Source of the DNA: Desulfonauticus submarinus
GTDB taxonomy: Bacteria > Desulfobacterota > Desulfovibrionia > Desulfovibrionales > Desulfonatronovibrionaceae
Direction of reading: 5' to 3'
NCBI RefSeq assembly: GCF_900104045.1
Contig: NZ_FNIN01000013.1
Span: 1 to 51,443 of the forward strand
Length of the DNA stretch: 51,443 bases
Positions 3-8,833 of the stretch are shown here, piece by piece. Numbering within the stretch: the first letter of the stretch is position 1; each line of letters begins with the position of its first letter. The notes beneath the pieces are model-generated. The model saw only the letters and a list, made by a program, of their open reading frames with translations, had not been told where the DNA came from and did no database searches. Both the position numbers and the translations under genes were made by a program.

Positions 3-317
3 AGAAAATGCATTGAAAAGGTAGAGGCTAAAAAAGCAAAAGATATTATGATTACTGAGTTTGTTTATTTAAAACCTACTGATCATGTTATGGAAGCTGA
101 GGCCTTGATTGTAGAAAGAGGAATTAATTCTTTGCCAGTTTTAGATGAAAACAAAAGACTGGTGGGCGAGGTCAATCGCAGAGATATTTTAGCCTACTTT
201 TCTAGTATCTGCGAGTACTGTGCCTTAAAAAATTTCCAAGCTGTGGATGTTAGTACCATTGATTGTCCTGAAAAAATTCAAGAGTGCTATGCCAAGCTAA
301 TTGCAGAAGAACAATAA
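3..317 (+). CDS. CBS-domain protein, C-terminal part (5' end outside window)
   Basis: The reading frame is open from base 3, so the gene begins upstream of the window; the ATG at 48 lies inside the domain (the preceding residues KKAKDI lead into MITEFVYL) and is not the start. The visible part is one CBS motif: a beta strand with TDHVMEAEALIVERGI, then SLPVLDENKRLVGEVNRRDIL, the usual CBS ending. CBS domains usually occur in pairs and bind adenine nucleotides, so the first copy is probably just off the edge. The stop is followed by AGGAGG, the ribosome site of the next gene, an anion permease 12 bases on; the two are probably co-transcribed, with the CBS protein possibly gating or sensing for the permease (inference). 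Confidence 0.8.
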   Translation, partial: RKCIEKVEAKKAKDIMITEFVYLKPTDHVMEAEALIVERGINSLPVLDENKRLVGEVNRRDILAYFSSICEYCALKNFQAVDVSTIDCPEKIQECYAKLIAEEQ

Positions 318-329
318 AGGAGGACTTTA

Positions 330-1664
330 ATGTTTTGGACAGCTACACTCATTTTTATCATTGCTTATGCAGTGATTGTCTCGGAAAAGATACATAAAAC
401 AAAGGTGGCTCTTTTTGGCGCAGCCTTAATGTTAATCTTTAAAATCCTACTACAACATGAAGCCTTTCATGACATTGAACTAGGCGTGGATTGGAATGTT
501 ATCTTTTTACTTATTTCGATGATGATTATTATTAATGTCATGACTAAAACTGGCGTCTTTCAATATGTAGCTATTAAATCTGCTAAATTTGCCAAAGGAG
601 AACCCTTTAAAATTATGGCTATTTTCGCCATTATTACTGCCATTGGCTCGGCCTTTTTAGATAATGTCACTACTGTCTTACTCCTAGCTCCGGTTACTTT
701 ACTTATTGCTGAACAATTAGAGGTTGATCCTGTTCCTTATCTTATCACTGAGGCATTAGCATCTAATATTGGAGGTACTGCAACACTTATCGGAGATCCT
801 CCTAATATCATGATCGCATCTAAAGCAGGGCTCAATTTTATGGATTTTATTATCCATCTTACTCCTGCAATTATTATCATCTTTACTGCTTGGTTAATTG
901 TTTGGAAGTTTATCTTTGCCAAAAGACTGCATGTAAAAGAAGAAAATAAAAAGAAAATTATGGCTATGAATGAAAACGAACTTATCACTGATCCTCTTCT
1001 GCTCAAAAAATCTCTCGCAATCCTAGGTTTAACCATTGTAGGCTTTATCTTGCATGGCTTCTTTCACTATGAACCAGCTACTGTAGCCCTTATGGGTGCA
1101 GCTACTTTACTCCTCATCTCTGGAGAAAATCCACATGATATTCTCGCTGAAGTAGAATGGCCTACTATCTTCTTCTTTATCGGCCTTTTTATTATCATTG
1201 GCGGTATCGTAAAAGTAGGTCTTGTAGAACTCATGTCTAAAAAAATGATCGACTTAACTAACCCTCAACCCAATAATATGCTCACACTCTCTATGGTTAT
1301 GGTCTGGTTCTCTGGAATTGCCTCTGCCATTGTAGATAATATCCCCTTTGTCGCTACCATGAACCCTCTTCTCATTGACATGGTCCACCAAGTATATGGA
1401 TTAACCTCCCAAGCTACCATGGAACATATCCAACATGCCGCCATGATGCCTGTCTGGTGGTCTCTAGCTCTTGGCGCTTGCCTCGGCGGTAACGGCTCGC
1501 CTATCGGCGCTTCCGCTAACGTCATCGTCGTCGGAATGAGCGAAAAAGCAGGTCACCCCATCTCCTTCATCAGATTCCTTAAATATGGAGTGCCTGTTAC
1601 CATTATAACTTTAGCTCTAGCTATGGGATATATTTATTTAAGATATTATCTATTAAACTTGTAA
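330..1664 (+). CDS. ArsB/NhaD-type (ion transporter superfamily) permease
   Basis: A 444-residue polytopic inner-membrane protein with about 11-12 hydrophobic segments. Diagnostic motifs of the ArsB/NhaD/P-protein group are SNIGGTATLIGDPPNIMI near residue 148, DNVTTVLLLAP near 112, DNIPFVATMNPLL near 337 and the mirrored GGNGSPIGASANVI near 388, showing the two inverted halves of the fold. The family includes Na+/H+ antiporters and arsenite or organic-anion carriers; sequence alone does not fix the substrate. A strong AGGAGG precedes the ATG. It follows a CBS-domain gene and precedes a regulator gene. The last third (about 1130-1590) is noticeably richer in G+C and C-ending codons than the rest, which may be a recombinant patch. 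Confidence 0.85.
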   Translation: MFWTATLIFIIAYAVIVSEKIHKTKVALFGAALMLIFKILLQHEAFHDIELGVDWNVIFLLISMMIIINVMTKTGVFQYVAIKSAKFAKGEPFKIMAIFAIITAIGSAFLDNVTTVLLLAPVTLLIAEQLEVDPVPYLITEALASNIGGTATLIGDPPNIMIASKAGLNFMDFIIHLTPAIIIIFTAWLIVWKFIFAKRLHVKEENKKKIMAMNENELITDPLLLKKSLAILGLTIVGFILHGFFHYEPATVALMGAATLLLISGENPHDILAEVEWPTIFFFIGLFIIIGGIVKVGLVELMSKKMIDLTNPQPNNMLTLSMVMVWFSGIASAIVDNIPFVATMNPLLIDMVHQVYGLTSQATMEHIQHAAMMPVWWSLALGACLGGNGSPIGASANVIVVGMSEKAGHPISFIRFLKYGVPVTIITLALAMGYIYLRYYLLNL

Positions 1665-1707: not shown

Positions 1708-1745
1708 ACATATAGGCAGATTTTTTTAAAAATCTGCCTATATGT
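1708..1745 (+). terminator. Perfect 18-bp hairpin after the permease gene
   Basis: Two complementary 18-base arms (1708-1725 and 1728-1745) separated by two bases, beginning 44 bases after the permease stop codon. The following sequence is only moderately T-rich, so it is either a terminator of the CBS-permease operon or a structured element in the leader of the regulator gene at 1817. Confidence 0.5.
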
Positions 1746-1748
1746 TGT

Positions 1749-1760
1749 ATTGTTCAACAC
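1749..1760. promoter_or_regulatory. Possible operator, ATTGTTCAACAC
   Basis: A near-palindromic TTGTTCAA core 57 bases before the NtrC-like regulator gene. A near-identical word (ATTGTGCAACAC, 5069-5080) lies just before the divergently placed TSUP exporter gene. A TTGCCT / TAAATT sigma-70-like pair with a 17-base spacer follows at 1767-1795. The shared word suggests a common regulator; this is inference from two sites. Confidence 0.3.
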
Positions 1761-1816: not shown

Positions 1817-3133
1817 ATGATAAATTCTCCATACGTTCTTATAGTTGATGATGAACCAGATTTTCTCCATACCTTAGGGAAAAGGCTAAGTCTTAGGAAT
1901 TTCCGTCCATTACTAGCATCTTCTGCTGCAGAAGCTATTGAAATTGCCAAACATCATCCTCTTAATATGGCCATAGTAGATTATAGTCTAACAGATCTAA
2001 ATGGCGTTGAATTAGCTGTTAAATTAAAAAAACTTAAACCAAATTTACAAGTTACCCTGGTTACTGGATATGCAAAAGAAGCATCTCAAAAAAACGAAAC
2101 CATACCTATAATAGACAAATCAAATCTAGACGAATTATGGAATATCATTGGACACTTTACTCCAGAAAACAAAATTTCTCCTAAATCTAATCCTACAGCT
2201 TCTAGGATCCCATGGATTATAGGAGAAACCCAAAAAATTCAAAAACTAAAAAAGAATTTAAATAAAATAGCAATTTTAGATTGCCCTATTCTTATAGTAG
2301 GAGAAACAGGAACAGGTAAAGAACTAATAGCAAGAACTTTGCACAGTCTTAGTTTTAGAAAACAAAATAAATTTATAGCAATTCATTGTAGTACATTTAA
2401 TCCAGAAATTCTTTTAAAAGAAATTTTTGGAGAAGAACATGAAGATTTAGAAGGAACCACCAGAAAGAGAATAGGACTTTTAGAGGTAGCAGAAGGAGGT
2501 ACTCTTTTTTTAGATGAAATAGAAAATGCTCCTTTAATGATTCAAAGCATGATTTTAAAGTTTATAGAAAAAAAGAGTTTTATCCCTTACGGAGGGAACA
2601 GAGAAGTTAAAGTTGATGTAAGAATAATTGCGGCAACTAATGGAAATTTAATTCAAAAAGTAAAAGAAGGACAATTTAGGGAAGATTTATACTTTCGTCT
2701 CAATGCTGTTTCACTGGAGTTACCTCCTCTACGAGAAAGAAAAGATGATATTCCTTTATTAGCCTACTATTTTTTAAACAAATATGCTCAAGAATTTGGT
2801 AAAAATGTAAATAAAATTTCTGAGGAAGTGTTAAACACTTTTAAAAACTATGATTTCCCAGGAAATGTAAGAGAGTTAGAGTACGCAATTGAACGGGCTG
2901 TAATCTTGGCTGAAAATGAAGAAATTACGTTAACCTGCCTACCATCTAGATTTAAAAATCCTTCTTCACCAATAAAAAACCATAATCTAAAAACATTAGA
3001 TGAAATAGAAAAAGAATATATTCTAAAAGTTCTTAAATTTACAAAGGGAAGTAAAAATGAAGCAGCAAAAATTTTAGGAATTAGTAGAACATCTCTTTGG
3101 AGAAAATTAAAACTTTATAACTTAGACCAATAA
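1817..3133 (+). CDS. NtrC-family response regulator with degenerate GAFTGA motif
   Basis: A 438-residue protein. Receiver domain, residues 5-112: acidic pair D11-D12, phospho-acceptor D55, T83 and K101 all present. AAA+ domain about 133-370: Walker A GETGTGKE at 162-169, Walker B LFLDEIE near 230-236, and RLNAVSLELPPLRERKDDI with the arginine finger region. Fis-type helix-turn-helix in the last 40 residues (GSKNEAAKILGISRTSLWRKL). The loop that contacts sigma-54, normally GAFTGA, reads EDLEGT at 209-214 with no length change, so the essential Phe and Thr are lost. The protein may therefore act with sigma-70, as a repressor, or as a partner in a mixed oligomer. AAAGGAT precedes the ATG. It is convergent with the receiver gene of the TSUP operon. 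Confidence 0.92.
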   Translation: MINSPYVLIVDDEPDFLHTLGKRLSLRNFRPLLASSAAEAIEIAKHHPLNMAIVDYSLTDLNGVELAVKLKKLKPNLQVTLVTGYAKEASQKNETIPIIDKSNLDELWNIIGHFTPENKISPKSNPTASRIPWIIGETQKIQKLKKNLNKIAILDCPILIVGETGTGKELIARTLHSLSFRKQNKFIAIHCSTFNPEILLKEIFGEEHEDLEGTTRKRIGLLEVAEGGTLFLDEIENAPLMIQSMILKFIEKKSFIPYGGNREVKVDVRIIAATNGNLIQKVKEGQFREDLYFRLNAVSLELPPLRERKDDIPLLAYYFLNKYAQEFGKNVNKISEEVLNTFKNYDFPGNVRELEYAIERAVILAENEEITLTCLPSRFKNPSSPIKNHNLKTLDEIEKEYILKVLKFTKGSKNEAAKILGISRTSLWRKLKLYNLDQ

Positions 3134-3170: not shown

Positions 3171-3620
3171 TTATTCTTCACCTTTTTCTATCTTTTGAGC
3201 ATCTTCTAAATCGCCATGAGTAGCTAAACCAGCAGCAGCCATAGTATCTTCTACCCTATGGGCCAATCTCTTTAAATAATCCCAAAAACTAGGCATATCA
3301 GCTTTATCAAAATATTCTGATTCTAAAGCCAAAGTAGCTTCTTTTACTTTCTCATCTCCATATCCAGTAAGCAAAATGGTGTGAAGTTTGGGATTTTGTT
3401 CTCTAAGTTTTTTAATTGTCTCTAATCCATCCAGACCTGGCATTTTTAAATCTATAACTGCAGCATAGAAAGTTTCTTTTTTAACTAATTCTAAGGCTTC
3501 CTCTCCTGAGGTAGCAGTAACAGCCTCAAAGCCTCGTAAATTAATTCTTTCTGCAATTGAGTTTAAAAACTCTATTTCATCATCAACTAATAAAATCTTA
3601 ATCTTCTTTTTTGGAGACAT
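3171..3620 (-). CDS. Stand-alone receiver-domain response regulator
   Basis: 149 residues. The receiver fold covers residues 7-120 with D13-D14, phospho-acceptor D57, T85 and K106. The last 30 residues are hydrophilic and alanine/glutamate rich, with no DNA-binding domain, so it signals through protein contacts or passes phosphate on. The end of the receiver (YFDKADMPSFWDYL) resembles that of the NtrC-like neighbour (IIDKSNLDELWNII) more than the plus-strand receivers, which have KPVD or KPAE at this point. It is the third gene of the minus operon TSUP exporter - membrane protein - receiver, 22 bases after the membrane-protein gene, with a GAGGTG ribosome site. Confidence 0.9.
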   Translation of the reverse strand: MSPKKKIKILLVDDEIEFLNSIAERINLRGFEAVTATSGEEALELVKKETFYAAVIDLKMPGLDGLETIKKLREQNPKLHTILLTGYGDEKVKEATLALESEYFDKADMPSFWDYLKRLAHRVEDTMAAAGLATHGDLEDAQKIEKGEE

Positions 3621-3642: not shown

Positions 3643-4071
3643 TTAATGTCCTCCAGACCCTAAAATACCTGAAGCAGCTAAAGTTAAAACCAGTACCTCT
3701 AAAAAAGCAATGGTTGCATATACTTTATCTTTCACTTTTAAATATCCAACAATAAGTACGAGATAACAAACTATCGTCAAAAGAGCTAACATTGCTATTC
3801 CTAAAAAATTAATAAAGTCTCCTCTATGGAGTAAAAACAACCATCCCCACCCATGAGGAGAATTAGTGATATGCATATATTCTTGAACACCTTTATCCCA
3901 ATTTTGCACAACTAAGTTTACATCTACATGTGGAGGTAAAATATGAAATACATATAAAATATAAGTTAAAGTCATTAAAGCAATACCTCCCCATGCTCCC
4001 CAAAACAAAATATTAGAATAAGTAATTTGCTGGGGTAATGGCTTTGTTAAATCTATATTATCTTTATTCAT
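3643..4071 (-). CDS. Small three-helix membrane protein of the TSUP operon, function unknown
   Basis: 142 residues, family not recognised. Hydrophobic segments at about 20-43, 87-111 and 118-137. Between the first two is a polar loop with several His and Trp residues (LPPHVDVN, EYMHITNSPHGWGW, LLHRGDF) that could bind metal or heme, but no CxxC or CxxCH is present. It begins 17 bases after the TSUP exporter stop with a strong AGGGGGAG ribosome site, so the two are co-translated and may form one transport unit. The receiver protein follows it. An accessory subunit or sensor for the exporter is the simplest guess. Confidence 0.8.
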   Translation of the reverse strand: MNKDNIDLTKPLPQQITYSNILFWGAWGGIALMTLTYILYVFHILPPHVDVNLVVQNWDKGVQEYMHITNSPHGWGWLFLLHRGDFINFLGIAMLALLTIVCYLVLIVGYLKVKDKVYATIAFLEVLVLTLAASGILGSGGH

Positions 4072-4088
4072 AATACTCCCCCTTTATT

Positions 4089-5048
4089 TTATCCGATTAT
4101 ATTCCATCCCATGCCTTTATCTATAGCCTTAAAACCTGCAAAGAAAAGAACCCCTATAACTATATATCTAATAACTTTTGGTTTGGTTATAGCTAGAACT
4201 TTAACTCCAATAAAAGAACCTAACATCAAACCTATAATTGAAGGAATAGCCATAAGAGGAATAACACATCCTTTATTTAAATAAATCCAAGCTGCAGAGG
4301 TATCTGTAATTGAAAGTAAAAATTTACTTGTTGCCACAGATATCTTAAGAGGAACTCCCATCACCAAATTTAACACAGGCACATTAGCCCAACCAGCACC
4401 TAACCCAAACATCCCAGCCAACACTCCAATAACAATAAATAATAACAAACCTGTTAAAGTACGATGGGTTTTCCACTCCACGATCTCTCCAGTACCTTCT
4501 TCTACATAAGCACCTTGTAACCCCAAAGCTAAACCAATAGCATCTTGCTTTGTAACCACAGGGCGTTCTGTATTTTTAGAACAAAGAAGAAGGATAGCTA
4601 TTCCCATAATAGTAATACCAAGAGCTGTCTGAACATAACCAGGATTTAAGCCAGAAAGATACAGTCCTAAAAATGCACCTGCAATTGAACAGGCAGATGC
4701 AATCAAAGCAATAGGCAAAGTCAAACGCAAACTCGCTAAGTTACGCCTTAGAAGACCAGGACCTGCAGCTAAGGCACCTGCCAATGCAACCATCAGCCCT
4801 GCACCCCTTACAAAATCAATATGAAAAGGGAAAAATCCACTTACTAAAGGAACATACAATACTCCTCCTCCTACACCAGCAAGAACAGCAATAACTCCCA
4901 AACCTAAACAAAAGAAAAATAAAATAAGAGGCCAAAACCACCAAGGCTTAACACCAGTAGAAACACCCTCTGCAGCGAAAGCAATCCAAGGACTAGCCAA
5001 AATAATAAAAAAAGCTGTCATCAGTCTTTGCCACATTTTTTTAACCAT
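4089..5048 (-). CDS. TauE/SafE (TSUP) family anion exporter
   Basis: 319 residues. A signal-like N-terminus (residues 8-25 ending in FAAEG) is followed by about eight transmembrane helices in two related halves: GVIAVLAGVGGGVLYVPL in the first and GVLAGMFGLGAGWANVPVL in the second, the glycine-rich TSUP signature. A soluble insert at about 165-195 (EGTGEIVEWKTH) separates the halves. The family exports sulfite, sulfoacetate, thiosulfate and related organosulfur anions; in a sulfur-metabolising anaerobe a sulfur oxyanion is a reasonable guess. It heads a three-gene minus operon and starts from an ATG with AGGAGAG upstream. It is divergent from the receiver-kinase operon at 5331, across 282 bases of AT-rich sequence that holds the promoter and operator candidates. 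Confidence 0.9.
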   Translation of the reverse strand: MVKKMWQRLMTAFFIILASPWIAFAAEGVSTGVKPWWFWPLILFFFCLGLGVIAVLAGVGGGVLYVPLVSGFFPFHIDFVRGAGLMVALAGALAAGPGLLRRNLASLRLTLPIALIASACSIAGAFLGLYLSGLNPGYVQTALGITIMGIAILLLCSKNTERPVVTKQDAIGLALGLQGAYVEEGTGEIVEWKTHRTLTGLLLFIVIGVLAGMFGLGAGWANVPVLNLVMGVPLKISVATSKFLLSITDTSAAWIYLNKGCVIPLMAIPSIIGLMLGSFIGVKVLAITKPKVIRYIVIGVLFFAGFKAIDKGMGWNIIG

Positions 5049-5068
5049 ACCCTCTCTCCTAATGTTAA

Positions 5069-5080
5069 ATTGTGCAACAC
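5069..5080. promoter_or_regulatory. Possible operator, ATTGTGCAACAC
   Basis: Matches the word before the NtrC-like gene (1749-1760) at 11 of 12 positions, with a palindromic TTGNNCAA core. It would overlap the transcription start predicted from the promoter at 5088-5116. Related pieces CAACAC and TGTTCAA recur at 5131-5147. Confidence 0.3.
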
Positions 5081-5087
5081 CTGTTTT

Positions 5088-5116
5088 GGTTTATTGCCTT
5101 GTGAATTTTGTGTCAA
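5088..5116 (-). promoter_or_regulatory. Sigma-70-like promoter for the TSUP operon
   Basis: On the minus strand a perfect TTGACA (5111-5116) is followed after 17 bases by a weak TAAACC. The start would fall near 5081, giving a leader of about 33 bases. The weak -10 suggests need for an activator. Confidence 0.4.
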
Positions 5117-5330: not shown

Positions 5331-5690
5331 ATGATTATATCCACAATTCTTATTGTAGACGATGAAAAAGATTATTTAAGTGCCTTGGCAGAGAGATTAG
5401 AGCTAAGAGGATATTTATGTCTAAAATCCATAAATGGTGAACAAGCTATCAAAATAATCAAAGAGAAAAAACCTGATCTTGTCTTATTAGATTTAAAAAT
5501 GCCAGGAATAAGTGGGATAGAAGTTTTAAAATGGATTTATGAAAATCATCCTAATTTACCCGTTTTTATTATAACAGGTCATGGATCTACAAAAGAAAAA
5601 GAATTGTGTTTAGAACTAGGGGCCAAGGAATATTTAAACAAACCTGTCGACTTTCAAAAATTACTGCAAAAAATAAGAGAATTAGAATGA
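5331..5690 (+). CDS. Single-domain receiver response regulator
   Basis: 119 residues and nothing but the receiver: D10-D11, phospho-acceptor D54, T82, K104 followed by PVDF. There is no output domain. AGGG lies about 8 bases before the ATG. The stop overlaps the start of the kinase gene (ATGA), so the two are translationally coupled and this is probably the kinase's direct partner. It shares the DDExxYLxxLAERLxLRG pattern with the other receivers in the block, which suggests tandem duplication. Confidence 0.92.
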   Translation: MIISTILIVDDEKDYLSALAERLELRGYLCLKSINGEQAIKIIKEKKPDLVLLDLKMPGISGIEVLKWIYENHPNLPVFIITGHGSTKEKELCLELGAKEYLNKPVDFQKLLQKIRELE

Positions 5691-7414
5691 TAAAGTCTAT
5701 TAAAAATATAAATTTTTTTAAACCACCTTTTTGGGAAGACCGAGACCCTAATCTAGAACAAAAAGAATCTCTTTTTGATTATCGCAAATTATGGATAGGT
5801 GTAATTGCTATTATTTCTTTAGTTGCAAGTGTTCCCTTATTTGTGCTTACTTTTCTAAATTTAAGTATTTATGAGAAAGCAATTCAAGCAGAAGTAGAAT
5901 ATCCTTTAATACGTTTAATCTCAAATACTAAAAATAGCATTAGTTTCTTTTTAGAGGAAAGAAAATGTGCTCTTAAGTTCATTGTAGAAAACAATTCCTT
6001 TGCAAAACTTTCTAAACAAGATGAACTTGGGAAAATATATACAGATTTCCAAAAAGCGTTTGGAGGGATTGTAGATCTTGGTATAATAAATTCCAAAGGT
6101 ACCCAAACCGTATATGTCGGACCATATAACTTAAAAGGCAAAAACTATGAAAATCAAGAATGGTATAAGGAAGTTATTTTAAAAGAATATTACGTTAGTG
6201 ATATTTTCTTAGGCTATAGAAACATGCCTCATTTTATTATTGCTATAAAAAAAATGCTTCCAAATGGAGATTTTTTCATTCTTAGGTCAACAATAGATAC
6301 CAATAAGTTTAATCAAATAATATCTGGTTTAGAAACAGATTCTACTAGTGACGCTTTTATTTTAAATGAAAAGAACATCCTACAGACAGACTCTAAATTT
6401 TTTGGGAAAGTCTTATCTTCATTTCCAATTGAGTTACCCAAGTGTAAAGCGGTAAAGAGAATATGTGAAATAACAGATCACAATGGCTTAAAGTGGTTAC
6501 TCGGTTATACTCGTATTCCGAATTCACCTTTTATTTTTGCCTTAGTAAAAAAACCTCTTGTATTGAGAAGCGGATTAAATTCCTTAAAAAAGGAAACTTT
6601 TTACGTCTTGGGTTTTAGTTTAATAATAGTGTTAGGAGTAGTAATATTTATTTCTACATCTCTAGTAACTAAAATTTATTATGCAGATATGAGAAGGCTA
6701 GCTCTCCTTCACAAGGCCGAACATTCTAACAAACTAGCATCTATAGGTAGGCTTGCAGCAGGAGTTGCCCATGAAATCAACAACCCTCTAGCTATTATAA
6801 ATGAAAAAGCAGGTCTTATGAAAGACCTTTTTATTTACTCTAAAAAATATCAACATGACAAAAAATTATTAGACTTAGTTGAATCCATATTAAAACAAGT
6901 AGAACGATGTAGAGAAATAACCCATAGACTACTTGGCTTTGCTCGTCACGTAGATGTAAAGATGGAAGAGGTAGATTTAGAATCTCTGATTAAAGAAGTC
7001 TTGAGTTTCTTACATAAAGAAGCTGAATACAGAGGCATAGATGTTAAAATTATCAAAAAACATACAATTCCTCTTATAAAAAGCGATAGAGGTAAGCTAC
7101 AACAAATTTTTTTAAACATAATTAACAATGCTTTTGCTGCTGTTTCTAAAGGTGGACATATTATTATCGCTCTAGAATCTCCAAAACAAAATATTGTGAG
7201 AATAAGTATCACAGATGACGGTATAGGCATTCCAAAGGAAAATCTAAAAAAAATCTTTGAGCCATTTTTTTCTACTAAACAAGATAAAGGCGGAACAGGG
7301 CTTGGACTATCTATTACTTATGGATTAGTAAAAAAATTAAAAGGAGATATATCTGTTAAAAGCGAAGTTGGTAAAGGTACAACTTTTACTATTAGTTTGC
7401 CAGTAAATCCTTAA
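5687..7414 (+). CDS. Membrane sensor histidine kinase with dCache-like extracytoplasmic domain
   Basis: 575 residues from the ATG at 5687, which overlaps the preceding stop as ATGA; an upstream in-frame ATG at 5606 lies wholly inside the receiver gene and is unlikely. Transmembrane helix about 36-58, extracytoplasmic region about 60-300 with the dCache pattern NQEWYKEV...YYVSDIFLG...PHFIIAIKK, second helix about 305-328, then HisKA (KLASIGRLAAGVAHEINNPL, phospho-His H362) and a complete HATPase domain: N box NIINNAF, G1 DDGIGIP, F box FEPFFSTK, G2 GGTGLGLSI. It belongs to the NtrB-like class. The ligand is unknown; small organic or inorganic anions are typical for this sensor type. Confidence 0.92.
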   Translation: MIKSIKNINFFKPPFWEDRDPNLEQKESLFDYRKLWIGVIAIISLVASVPLFVLTFLNLSIYEKAIQAEVEYPLIRLISNTKNSISFFLEERKCALKFIVENNSFAKLSKQDELGKIYTDFQKAFGGIVDLGIINSKGTQTVYVGPYNLKGKNYENQEWYKEVILKEYYVSDIFLGYRNMPHFIIAIKKMLPNGDFFILRSTIDTNKFNQIISGLETDSTSDAFILNEKNILQTDSKFFGKVLSSFPIELPKCKAVKRICEITDHNGLKWLLGYTRIPNSPFIFALVKKPLVLRSGLNSLKKETFYVLGFSLIIVLGVVIFISTSLVTKIYYADMRRLALLHKAEHSNKLASIGRLAAGVAHEINNPLAIINEKAGLMKDLFIYSKKYQHDKKLLDLVESILKQVERCREITHRLLGFARHVDVKMEEVDLESLIKEVLSFLHKEAEYRGIDVKIIKKHTIPLIKSDRGKLQQIFLNIINNAFAAVSKGGHIIIALESPKQNIVRISITDDGIGIPKENLKKIFEPFFSTKQDKGGTGLGLSITYGLVKKLKGDISVKSEVGKGTTFTISLPVNP

Positions 7415-7430: not shown

Positions 7431-7796
7431 TTGAAAATACTATTAGTAGACGATGAGGAAGAATTAGTTGCAACTCTTGCTGAACGCCTTTCTTTTCGAG
7501 GTATTGAGGCAGACTTTGCCACCACAGGAGAAGAAGCACTCAGCCTTGCTGAAAAACATACTTATGACCTAGCTATCTTAGATATGAAAATGCCTAAATT
7601 AAGTGGACTTGAGTTAATGGATAAACTCAAACAAATCCAACCAAATCTAAAATTTGGATTCTTAACTGGACATGGTTCAGAACAAGATTTTCACGCTACC
7701 TGTGACAAAGGAAGTTGCTTTTATCTAGTAAAACCTGTTGATTTTGAAGATTTTTTACACAAATTAAACGAAATAGGAGCTACAACTCATGAATAA
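7431..7796 (+). CDS. Single-domain receiver response regulator (TTG start)
   Basis: 121 residues: D7-D8, phospho-acceptor D51, T79, K101 followed by PVDF. It starts with TTG, supported by GGGAGGT seven bases upstream. The final 8 bases overlap the next gene. A short cysteine-containing stretch (ATCDKGSCFYLV) precedes the conserved lysine where the other receivers of the block have a plain LGA sequence; two cysteines four residues apart could be redox-sensitive, but that is speculation. It lies between a complete kinase and a degenerate kinase, consistent with a relay. Confidence 0.9.
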   Translation: MKILLVDDEEELVATLAERLSFRGIEADFATTGEEALSLAEKHTYDLAILDMKMPKLSGLELMDKLKQIQPNLKFGFLTGHGSEQDFHATCDKGSCFYLVKPVDFEDFLHKLNEIGATTHE

Positions 7797-8391
7797 TCTT
7801 ACACATCCTTTATGGTTTAATATTAAACTCTCAGGCCAAATAACAGCTAGCATTTCCCATGAAATAAAAAATTGTCTGGCTATTATCCAAGAACAAAGTG
7901 GTCTCTTAGAAGACCTCTTATTTTTACAAAAAGAAGGTAAACCCCTATCTATTGAAAAAATTGAAGAAATTATAAACTCAATTAGCAGACAAGCCAGGCG
8001 AGCAAACCTTATTGTCCAAAATCTTAATATGTTAGCTCATATGCCAGACCAAGAACAGTCTTCTATTAACCTTAACAAGTTATTAAACTTGGTTATAAGT
8101 ACTTATAATAGAATCTCTAAAATGAAGAATGTGGACTTACAACTAAAAACTCAATCTGATAAGACCATTATTACTCAACCTCTTATCCTATTTAATCTAA
8201 TTGTTTCTATTTTAAATGACATTATAGCTAAAGACCCTCCTAAAACTATTTATATCTCAACCAATGAACACAAAATAAACATAAGTCCGTGTTATTATAT
8301 TAGTAATAATACTAAAGAAATTTTAAAATTTTTAAAGTTGGACTATACATTGGATAAAGAAAAACAAACTATCTTTATAACTCTAACCTAA
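7789..8391 (+). CDS. Degenerate histidine kinase: phospho-His helix kept, ATP site lost
   Basis: 200 residues, no membrane helix. Residues 14-80 are a HisKA-like dimerisation helix with ITASISHEIKNCLAIIQEQSG and phospho-acceptor H24. The remaining 110 residues occupy the place of a HATPase domain, but its boxes are absent: no N box (LIVSILNDII at that point), no DxGxG, no GxGLG. It therefore probably cannot autophosphorylate and more likely acts as a phosphotransfer protein, a phosphatase, or a dimer partner of the complete kinase. It overlaps the preceding receiver by 8 bases and precedes another receiver by 10 bases. A diverged active kinase is unlikely. Confidence 0.8.
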   Translation: MNNLTHPLWFNIKLSGQITASISHEIKNCLAIIQEQSGLLEDLLFLQKEGKPLSIEKIEEIINSISRQARRANLIVQNLNMLAHMPDQEQSSINLNKLLNLVISTYNRISKMKNVDLQLKTQSDKTIITQPLILFNLIVSILNDIIAKDPPKTIYISTNEHKINISPCYYISNNTKEILKFLKLDYTLDKEKQTIFITLT

Positions 8392-8401
8392 GGAGTGAAA
8401 T

Positions 8402-8833
8402 ATGGAAAATACAAAGGTATTAATTGTAGATGACGAACAAGAATTTTGCAATTCTCTAGCAGAACGAATGAAGACAAGAGGTTTGGAAGTAGCAACTGCT
8501 TCTTCAGGTGCAGAGGCAATACAAAAACTAAAAAAAGATAATTTTGATACTATAATATTAGATCTAGTTATGCCTGGTATGGATGGTATAGAAACCTTAA
8601 AAAAAATAAAGCAAGAAATGCCAGAAGTTCAAATAATCCTTTTAACAGGTCAGGCCAGTGTACAAAAAAGTGTTGAGGCAATGAAACTGGGGGCCTTTGA
8701 CTTTGTAGAAAAGCCAGCTGAAATTAAAGAACTTTTAAAAAAAATCCAAGAGGCTAAAAACCAAAAGATGATTTTGATTCAAAAAAAACACGAAGAAAAA
8801 ATAAAACACATATTAGAAGAAAAAGGTTGGTAA
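8402..8833 (+). CDS. Receiver response regulator with C-terminal helix
   Basis: 143 residues. Receiver residues 5-120: D10-D11, phospho-acceptor D54, T82, K104 followed by PAE. The last 25 residues form a charged helix (Lys/Glu-rich, coiled-coil prone) and no DNA-binding domain. LGAFDFVEKPA is the form commonly found in NtrC-type receivers, so it may have lost an output domain. It is the last gene of the receiver-kinase operon; AAGGAG precedes the ATG and a terminator follows. Confidence 0.9.
   Translation: MENTKVLIVDDEQEFCNSLAERMKTRGLEVATASSGAEAIQKLKKDNFDTIILDLVMPGMDGIETLKKIKQEMPEVQIILLTGQASVQKSVEAMKLGAFDFVEKPAEIKELLKKIQEAKNQKMILIQKKHEEKIKHILEEKGW

Follow-up and report, generated by a model that had tools for sequence, protein, structure and literature searches.

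The window, the whole stretch of 51,443 nucleotides from Desulfonauticus submarinus that was analysed, contains an open reading frame for a 438-amino-acid REC–AAA+–Fis protein, an NtrC-family response regulator (below, the regulator). This frame and an operon encoding a TauE/SafE-family transporter are convergent, and a signalling operon with a sensor kinase and several stand-alone receivers diverges from the latter. The features discussed here are listed below; G014 and G015 are two other Desulfonauticus species.

1708..1745 (+), terminator-like hairpin that follows the CitMHS/ArsB-like transporter gene and immediately precedes the candidate operator of the regulator
1743..1760 (+), candidate operator upstream of the regulator (autoregulation), TGTTGTATTGTTCAACAC
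1817..3133 (+), regulator gene; domains approximately REC 5–115, AAA+ 134–385, Fis HTH 393–433
2441..2458 (+), EDLEGT replacing GAFTGA at the L1 tip, residues 209–214, GAAGATTTAGAAGGAACC
3171..3620 (-), stand-alone receiver REC1, closing the TauE operon and convergent with the regulator gene
3643..4071 (-), DUF1634-like membrane protein of the TauE operon, just below the Pfam cut-off
4089..5048 (-), TauE/SafE-family transporter (PF01925, 2.8e-33), presumed target operon
5063..5080 (+), candidate operator immediately past the predicted promoter of TauE, TGTTAAATTGTGCAACAC, conserved in G014 and G015
5088..5116 (-), predicted sigma70-type TauE promoter (TTGACA 5116–5111, 17 bp, weak -10 TAAACC 5093–5088)
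5331..5690 (+), stand-alone receiver REC2, first in the divergent signalling operon
5606..7414 (+), dCache sensor histidine kinase
7431..7796 (+), stand-alone receiver REC3
7789..8391 (+), HisKA-only protein, ATPase domain not detectable
8402..8833 (+), stand-alone receiver REC4

The HisKA-only protein (200 amino acids, HATPase undetected) lies between stand-alone receivers and has a 47% identical counterpart in G014; it may be a histidine phosphotransferase like ChpT or Spo0B. Upstream of the regulator, 48–1664 (+) encodes a CBS-domain protein and the CitMHS/ArsB-like transporter. In G016 an 87% identical transporter and a CBS protein lie no more than about 4 kb from another bEBP, L161, whose GAFTGA is intact. 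G015 (L154) keeps the genes for the regulator, TauE and DUF1634, and REC1 and the kinase operon are missing from that neighbourhood. Of the 348 genomes of the order, 131 have TauE relatives. Scanning the window for Rfam families and tRNAs gave no matches.

The sigma-54 contact loop and its relatives

The regulator has a PF00158 AAA+ domain with Walker A (GETGTGKE, residues 162–169), Walker B (GTLFLDE, 228–234) and an arginine-finger region (FREDLYFR, 287–294), as well as NVREL at residues 350–354 and a Fis-type HTH (PF02954, 2.8e-14). Its closest PDB relative by sequence is NtrC1 (4l4u, 3.5e-76). With a mean pLDDT of 87, the AF2 model shows the usual AAA+ fold and matches NtrC1 1ny6, among the nearest AAA+ folds, with Z 29.8 and rmsd 1.9 over 245 residues. 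Among the NCBIfam equivalogs listed (NtrC, NtrX, TyrR and other bEBP models), the regulator falls far below every cut-off, scoring 289.8 against 558.6 for ntrC and 226.2 against 576 for TyrR.

The preliminary description of this DNA had placed EDLEGT at residues 209–214, aligned without gaps to GAFTGA, and both the translation and the PDB alignments (NtrC1 4l4u/1ny5, ZraR 1ojl) bear this out. Where a GAFTGA loop requires an aromatic residue and a Thr or Ser, the window protein has EDLEGT. An L1-type hairpin nevertheless persists in the AF2 model (strands 206–209 and 215–218). That the contact loop is lost while the remaining AAA+ domain and the HTH are kept, as also proposed there, is supported. 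An alignment artefact was rejected because three species, the PDB alignments and MAFFT all agree without gaps.

Aligning orthologues, the check put forward with that proposal, showed that the loss extends beyond one strain. Those found in the two other Desulfonauticus species searched are about 60% identical and share the TauE/DUF1634 neighbourhood, and their loops read QYSNQQ (G014) and EDIGTN (G015). A strain-specific mutation is thus refuted, as both congeners are also loop-less. Walker B, which had been described as intact, is so in the window gene but not in these orthologues, in which its Asp has become His (G014) or Glu (G015). In another family, G079 and G085 have syntenic orthologues in which Phe and Thr are deleted (EA--GG, in FGQEPEA--GGGRG), so that both residues are absent from five of five loop-less members (window, G014, G015, G079 and G085). 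These five form one clade (support 97/98, in a tree from which the loop and Walker B columns had been left out) with three more distant sisters, G201, G218 and G230, in which EAFTGA is intact; the loop loss is therefore derived. The regulator is syntenic with TauE/DUF1634 in the window genome, G014, G015, G079, G085, G201 and G218; in G230 the regulator and TauE genes are on separate contigs. Two losses of the loop are most parsimonious and fit the sequences best, with one loss in none of the bootstrap trees; the AU test does not reject a single loss (p = 0.278). Elsewhere in the D. submarinus genome, 13 other bEBPs have an intact or near-intact loop. A second one with an atypical loop, GVATGV, is L010 (G000:C1:149740-150660), the others having GAFTGA or accepted variants; GVATGV also occurs in DVUA0100 of D. 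vulgaris, where it is thought to be functional (PMC4641369).

The protein is still under purifying selection, strongly so in the AAA+ domain and the HTH. Within the genus these are 71–76% and 76–78% identical, dN is 0.15–0.21 against a near-saturated dS of at least 1.4, and there is no change in Walker A, the arginine fingers, the NVREL motif or the recognition helix. The receiver domain drifts (21–32% identity), and in G015 its acidic pocket and phosphosite are gone. Across 97 relatives with intact GAFTGA, 64 columns are conserved to 90% or more; all three species of the genus deviate at only eight of these, and four of the eight belong to the motif, which has five such columns (hypergeometric p = 5e-4). 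The pre-sensor-I region reads PYGG instead of RVGG in all three species, and the AAA+ Asn usual at residue 190 is His in the window protein and G014; aligned by position, this Asn would correspond to N64 of the PspF 'glutamate switch' (PMC7057263). Conserved AAA+ and HTH domains with deviating coupling residues indicate that the sigma-54 coupling path, not the whole protein, has been selectively eroded. The loss of the Walker B Asp and the lost or altered receiver phosphosites in the sisters make a working ATPase motor less likely and favour a DNA-binding regulator, which would need nucleotide binding at most.

Many Desulfovibrionaceae have a rearranged module, with a divergent GAFTGA-intact bEBP and a PAS–AAA+ protein within the TauE operon. 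In all 17 of these PAS–AAA+ proteins the loop is wrecked and Ser, Ala, Pro or Thr stands in place of the Walker B Asp; the 17 form a clade separate from the regulator (support 100). Judged by their gene arrangement and by the GAFPGA loop that one member has, these modules appear to correspond to DVU2956 and DVU2960 of D. vulgaris. Among the DVU2960-type sequences (L275, L276, L279, L281, L282, L286–L291, L293, L295–L299), HTH_8 was undetected in three of the four scanned.

Candidate operator and TauE promoter

The palindrome TGTTN9AACA has only two sites in the 51 kb, upstream of the regulator (1743–1759) and upstream of TauE (5063–5079); this count is not above chance, and it is the positions that carry the weight. 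The 18-mers at the two genes agree at 15 of 18 positions, and the next best elsewhere in the window at 13 of 18. The TauE site adjoins a predicted promoter with a TTGACA box conserved in three species. At a spacing of 17 bp its -10 is weak (TAAACC in the window, TAAAGT and TAAAAG in the sisters), so the sigma-70 promoter of TauE is only predicted; the scan of the window that found the hairpin did not list it. The three congeners share TTGACANAAAATTCACAA upstream of TauE, with the palindrome 33–36 bases from its start. This nearly invariant block (5099–5116, (-)) may be more than a -35 box, being loosely a CRP/FNR-like inverted repeat.

Just past the TauE TTGAC box, GTT-N9-AAC is found in six of the eight modules with the regulator (window, G014, G015, G201, G218 and G230), and at that place in none of 38 TauE loci without it, one of which has a match farther upstream. 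For 6/8 against 1/38 the hypergeometric p is ~2e-5, to be read with the loci being related and the motif having been chosen after viewing the window; the palindrome was spotted by inspection and the counts are partly post hoc. The site after the TTGAC box is absent at TauE of G079 and G085. The recognition helix is ISRTSLWRKLK, or a close variant, in the site-bearing species and ISRAGLWRKLK in these two site-less ones. At the regulator's own promoter in G014 and G015, GTT-N9-AAC was not found. The same palindrome occurs in relatives whose EAFTGA is intact, so its presence does not strictly go with loss of the loop.

No GG-N10-GC pair lies within 420 bp upstream of TauE; sigma-54 targets farther away may exist. 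A sigma-54 promoter scan of 46 TauE loci, meant to compare loop loss with promoter class, was a weak test: it missed many expected sites, and strong ones (scores of at least 19) were confined to three DVU2956-type modules. Searching the whole genome for a motif fitted to the palindrome sites showed no enrichment over control at two mismatches, and so we do not claim a wider regulon. In G201 the strict palindrome occurs three times genome-wide, once at TauE and twice ahead of a second TauE-type operon. The latter two (G201:C29; L300, 2741 and 2976) are perfect GTTTCA-N3-TGAAAC palindromes upstream of a USP and second TauE-type transporter operon, and adjoin a GAFTGA-intact bEBP and a histidine kinase; another bEBP may therefore read the palindrome.

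A proposed DNA-binding regulator and the alternatives

We propose, with a probability of about 0.6, that the protein is an NtrC-type regulator uncoupled from sigma-54 and working through DNA binding, most likely as an autoregulated repressor (or repressor/anti-repressor) of the TauE–DUF1634–REC1 operon. Productive contact with sigma-54 would have been lost and the protein retained to bind TGTT-N9-AACA palindromes in two places, its own promoter and the stretch immediately past TauE's TTGACA-type promoter. At TauE it would occupy the start region of the promoter, a typical repressor position, and sigma-54 would be unnecessary. The AAA+ domain would probably serve oligomerisation, perhaps in an ATP-bound state, and not remodelling; nucleotide-dependent oligomerisation may remain, as in NtrC of Rhodobacter capsulatus. 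We infer palindrome binding, repression, the sigma-70 class of the promoter and the dispensability of hydrolysis from the patterns described above.

Each of the other readings is less likely. The regulator could still be a sigma-54 activator, either through an unusual loop or by forming mixed rings with a partner that has GAFTGA: rpoN is present in the D. submarinus genome beside the 13 other bEBPs, the model retains the L1 hairpin, and a GAFTGA-less NtrC mutant has sigma-54-linked effects (PMC12421884). This is unlikely given that Phe and Thr are missing from all five loop-less members, that the replacement varies between congeners, that two species have lost the Walker B Asp and that no -24/-12-like site was found upstream of the linked genes. 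It is rather improbable that the protein is an anti-activator, occupying palindromes read by a sigma-54 bEBP or poisoning its rings. Half-sites of TGT/ACA 9, 11 or 12 bp apart do recur as a motif type among Desulfovibrio bEBPs (PMC4641369), and the G201 palindromes adjoin a GAFTGA-intact bEBP and a second TauE-type operon, but the linked operon in the window has no recognisable sigma-54 promoter and the divergent GAFTGA bEBP of the DVU2956-type modules is absent.

The preliminary description had suggested a different use of the AAA+ ring, and the window protein does retain its ATP-site residues. EDLEGT, QYSNQQ and EDIGTN, however, share little and no new loop sequence is common to them, so the loop resembles relaxed constraint more than a new contact surface; with the Walker B Asp missing from the sisters as well, a new client is just as improbable as an anti-activator. 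Relaxation of the whole gene, in the form of functionless decay, would account for the fast divergence of REC, the vanished phosphosite pocket of G015 and the lost Walker B Asp of two species, yet it is very unlikely for a frame that is open in three species at about 60% identity and is under strong purifying selection in its AAA+ and HTH domains, with their key motifs invariant. The regulator is thus probably a sigma-54-independent controller of the adjoining sulfur-type transporter.

Comparison with known systems

Like DVU2960 (D. vulgaris, GAFPGA) and its clade, the regulator is an NtrC-like protein with a wrecked loop in a TauE–DUF1634–HK module. It is not a member of that clade: DVU2960-type proteins have a PAS N terminus, have lost the Walker B Asp and are encoded between DUF1634 and the kinase, whereas the regulator has a REC N terminus, keeps LFLDE, is encoded by a convergent gene and belongs to a separate clade. 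In D. vulgaris it was DVU2956, not DVU2960, that bound the promoter of the TauE operon (PMC4641369). We suggest tentatively, as possible and somewhat short of probable, that uncoupling from sigma-54 was repeated in one transporter–signalling module of sulfate reducers (in Desulfonauticus, the G079/G085 genus and the DVU2960-type clade). The series would record a change from activator to repressor at a housekeeping promoter, followed by loss of the sigma-54 contact, the ATPase and the phosphorylation sites. This order is proposed because loop-intact sisters already have the palindrome after the TTGACA box; as they share the candidate site, a change of job before loop loss is probable.

The main interest of the locus lies in this graded series of relatives. 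With loop-bearing and loop-less close relatives at one locus and a shared candidate operator, the step from activator to independent regulator is directly testable. The family is annotated as sigma-54-dependent, which the window protein and its loop-less relatives probably are not, and a widespread TauE-type transporter of sulfate reducers gains a candidate regulator and a candidate site.

Sigma-54-independent NtrC relatives are already well known (PMC3162934, PMC10274813), and the regulator joins that functional kind. Precedents include NtrC of Caulobacter and R. capsulatus and VpsR (PMC10274813), and TyrR, DhaR and HupR (PMC3162934). VpsR (Vibrio cholerae), TyrR and DhaR (E. coli) and HupR (R. 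capsulatus) are likewise sigma-54-independent bEBP descendants; as far as compared, the regulator is not orthologous to TyrR (226 bits against 576 for the model) or to VpsR, which is among the more distant PDB bEBP matches. NtrC1 of Aquifex aeolicus has GAFTGA where the regulator has EDLEGT. The sigma-70-acting NtrC proteins of Caulobacter and R. capsulatus resemble it in their REC–AAA+–Fis architecture, the missing L1 motif and the absence of sigma-54 contact, which for the regulator is predicted. In R. capsulatus NtrC, ATP binding matters and hydrolysis does not (PMC10274813); in Caulobacter NtrC, which is without GAFTGA, an HTH mutation was linked to sigma-54 genes (PMC12421884). Unlike these two proteins, in which GAFTGA is deleted and the linkage is to nitrogen genes, the regulator has the motif substituted at full length, is linked to TauE and signalling genes, and has sister species in which the receiver and Walker B have drifted.
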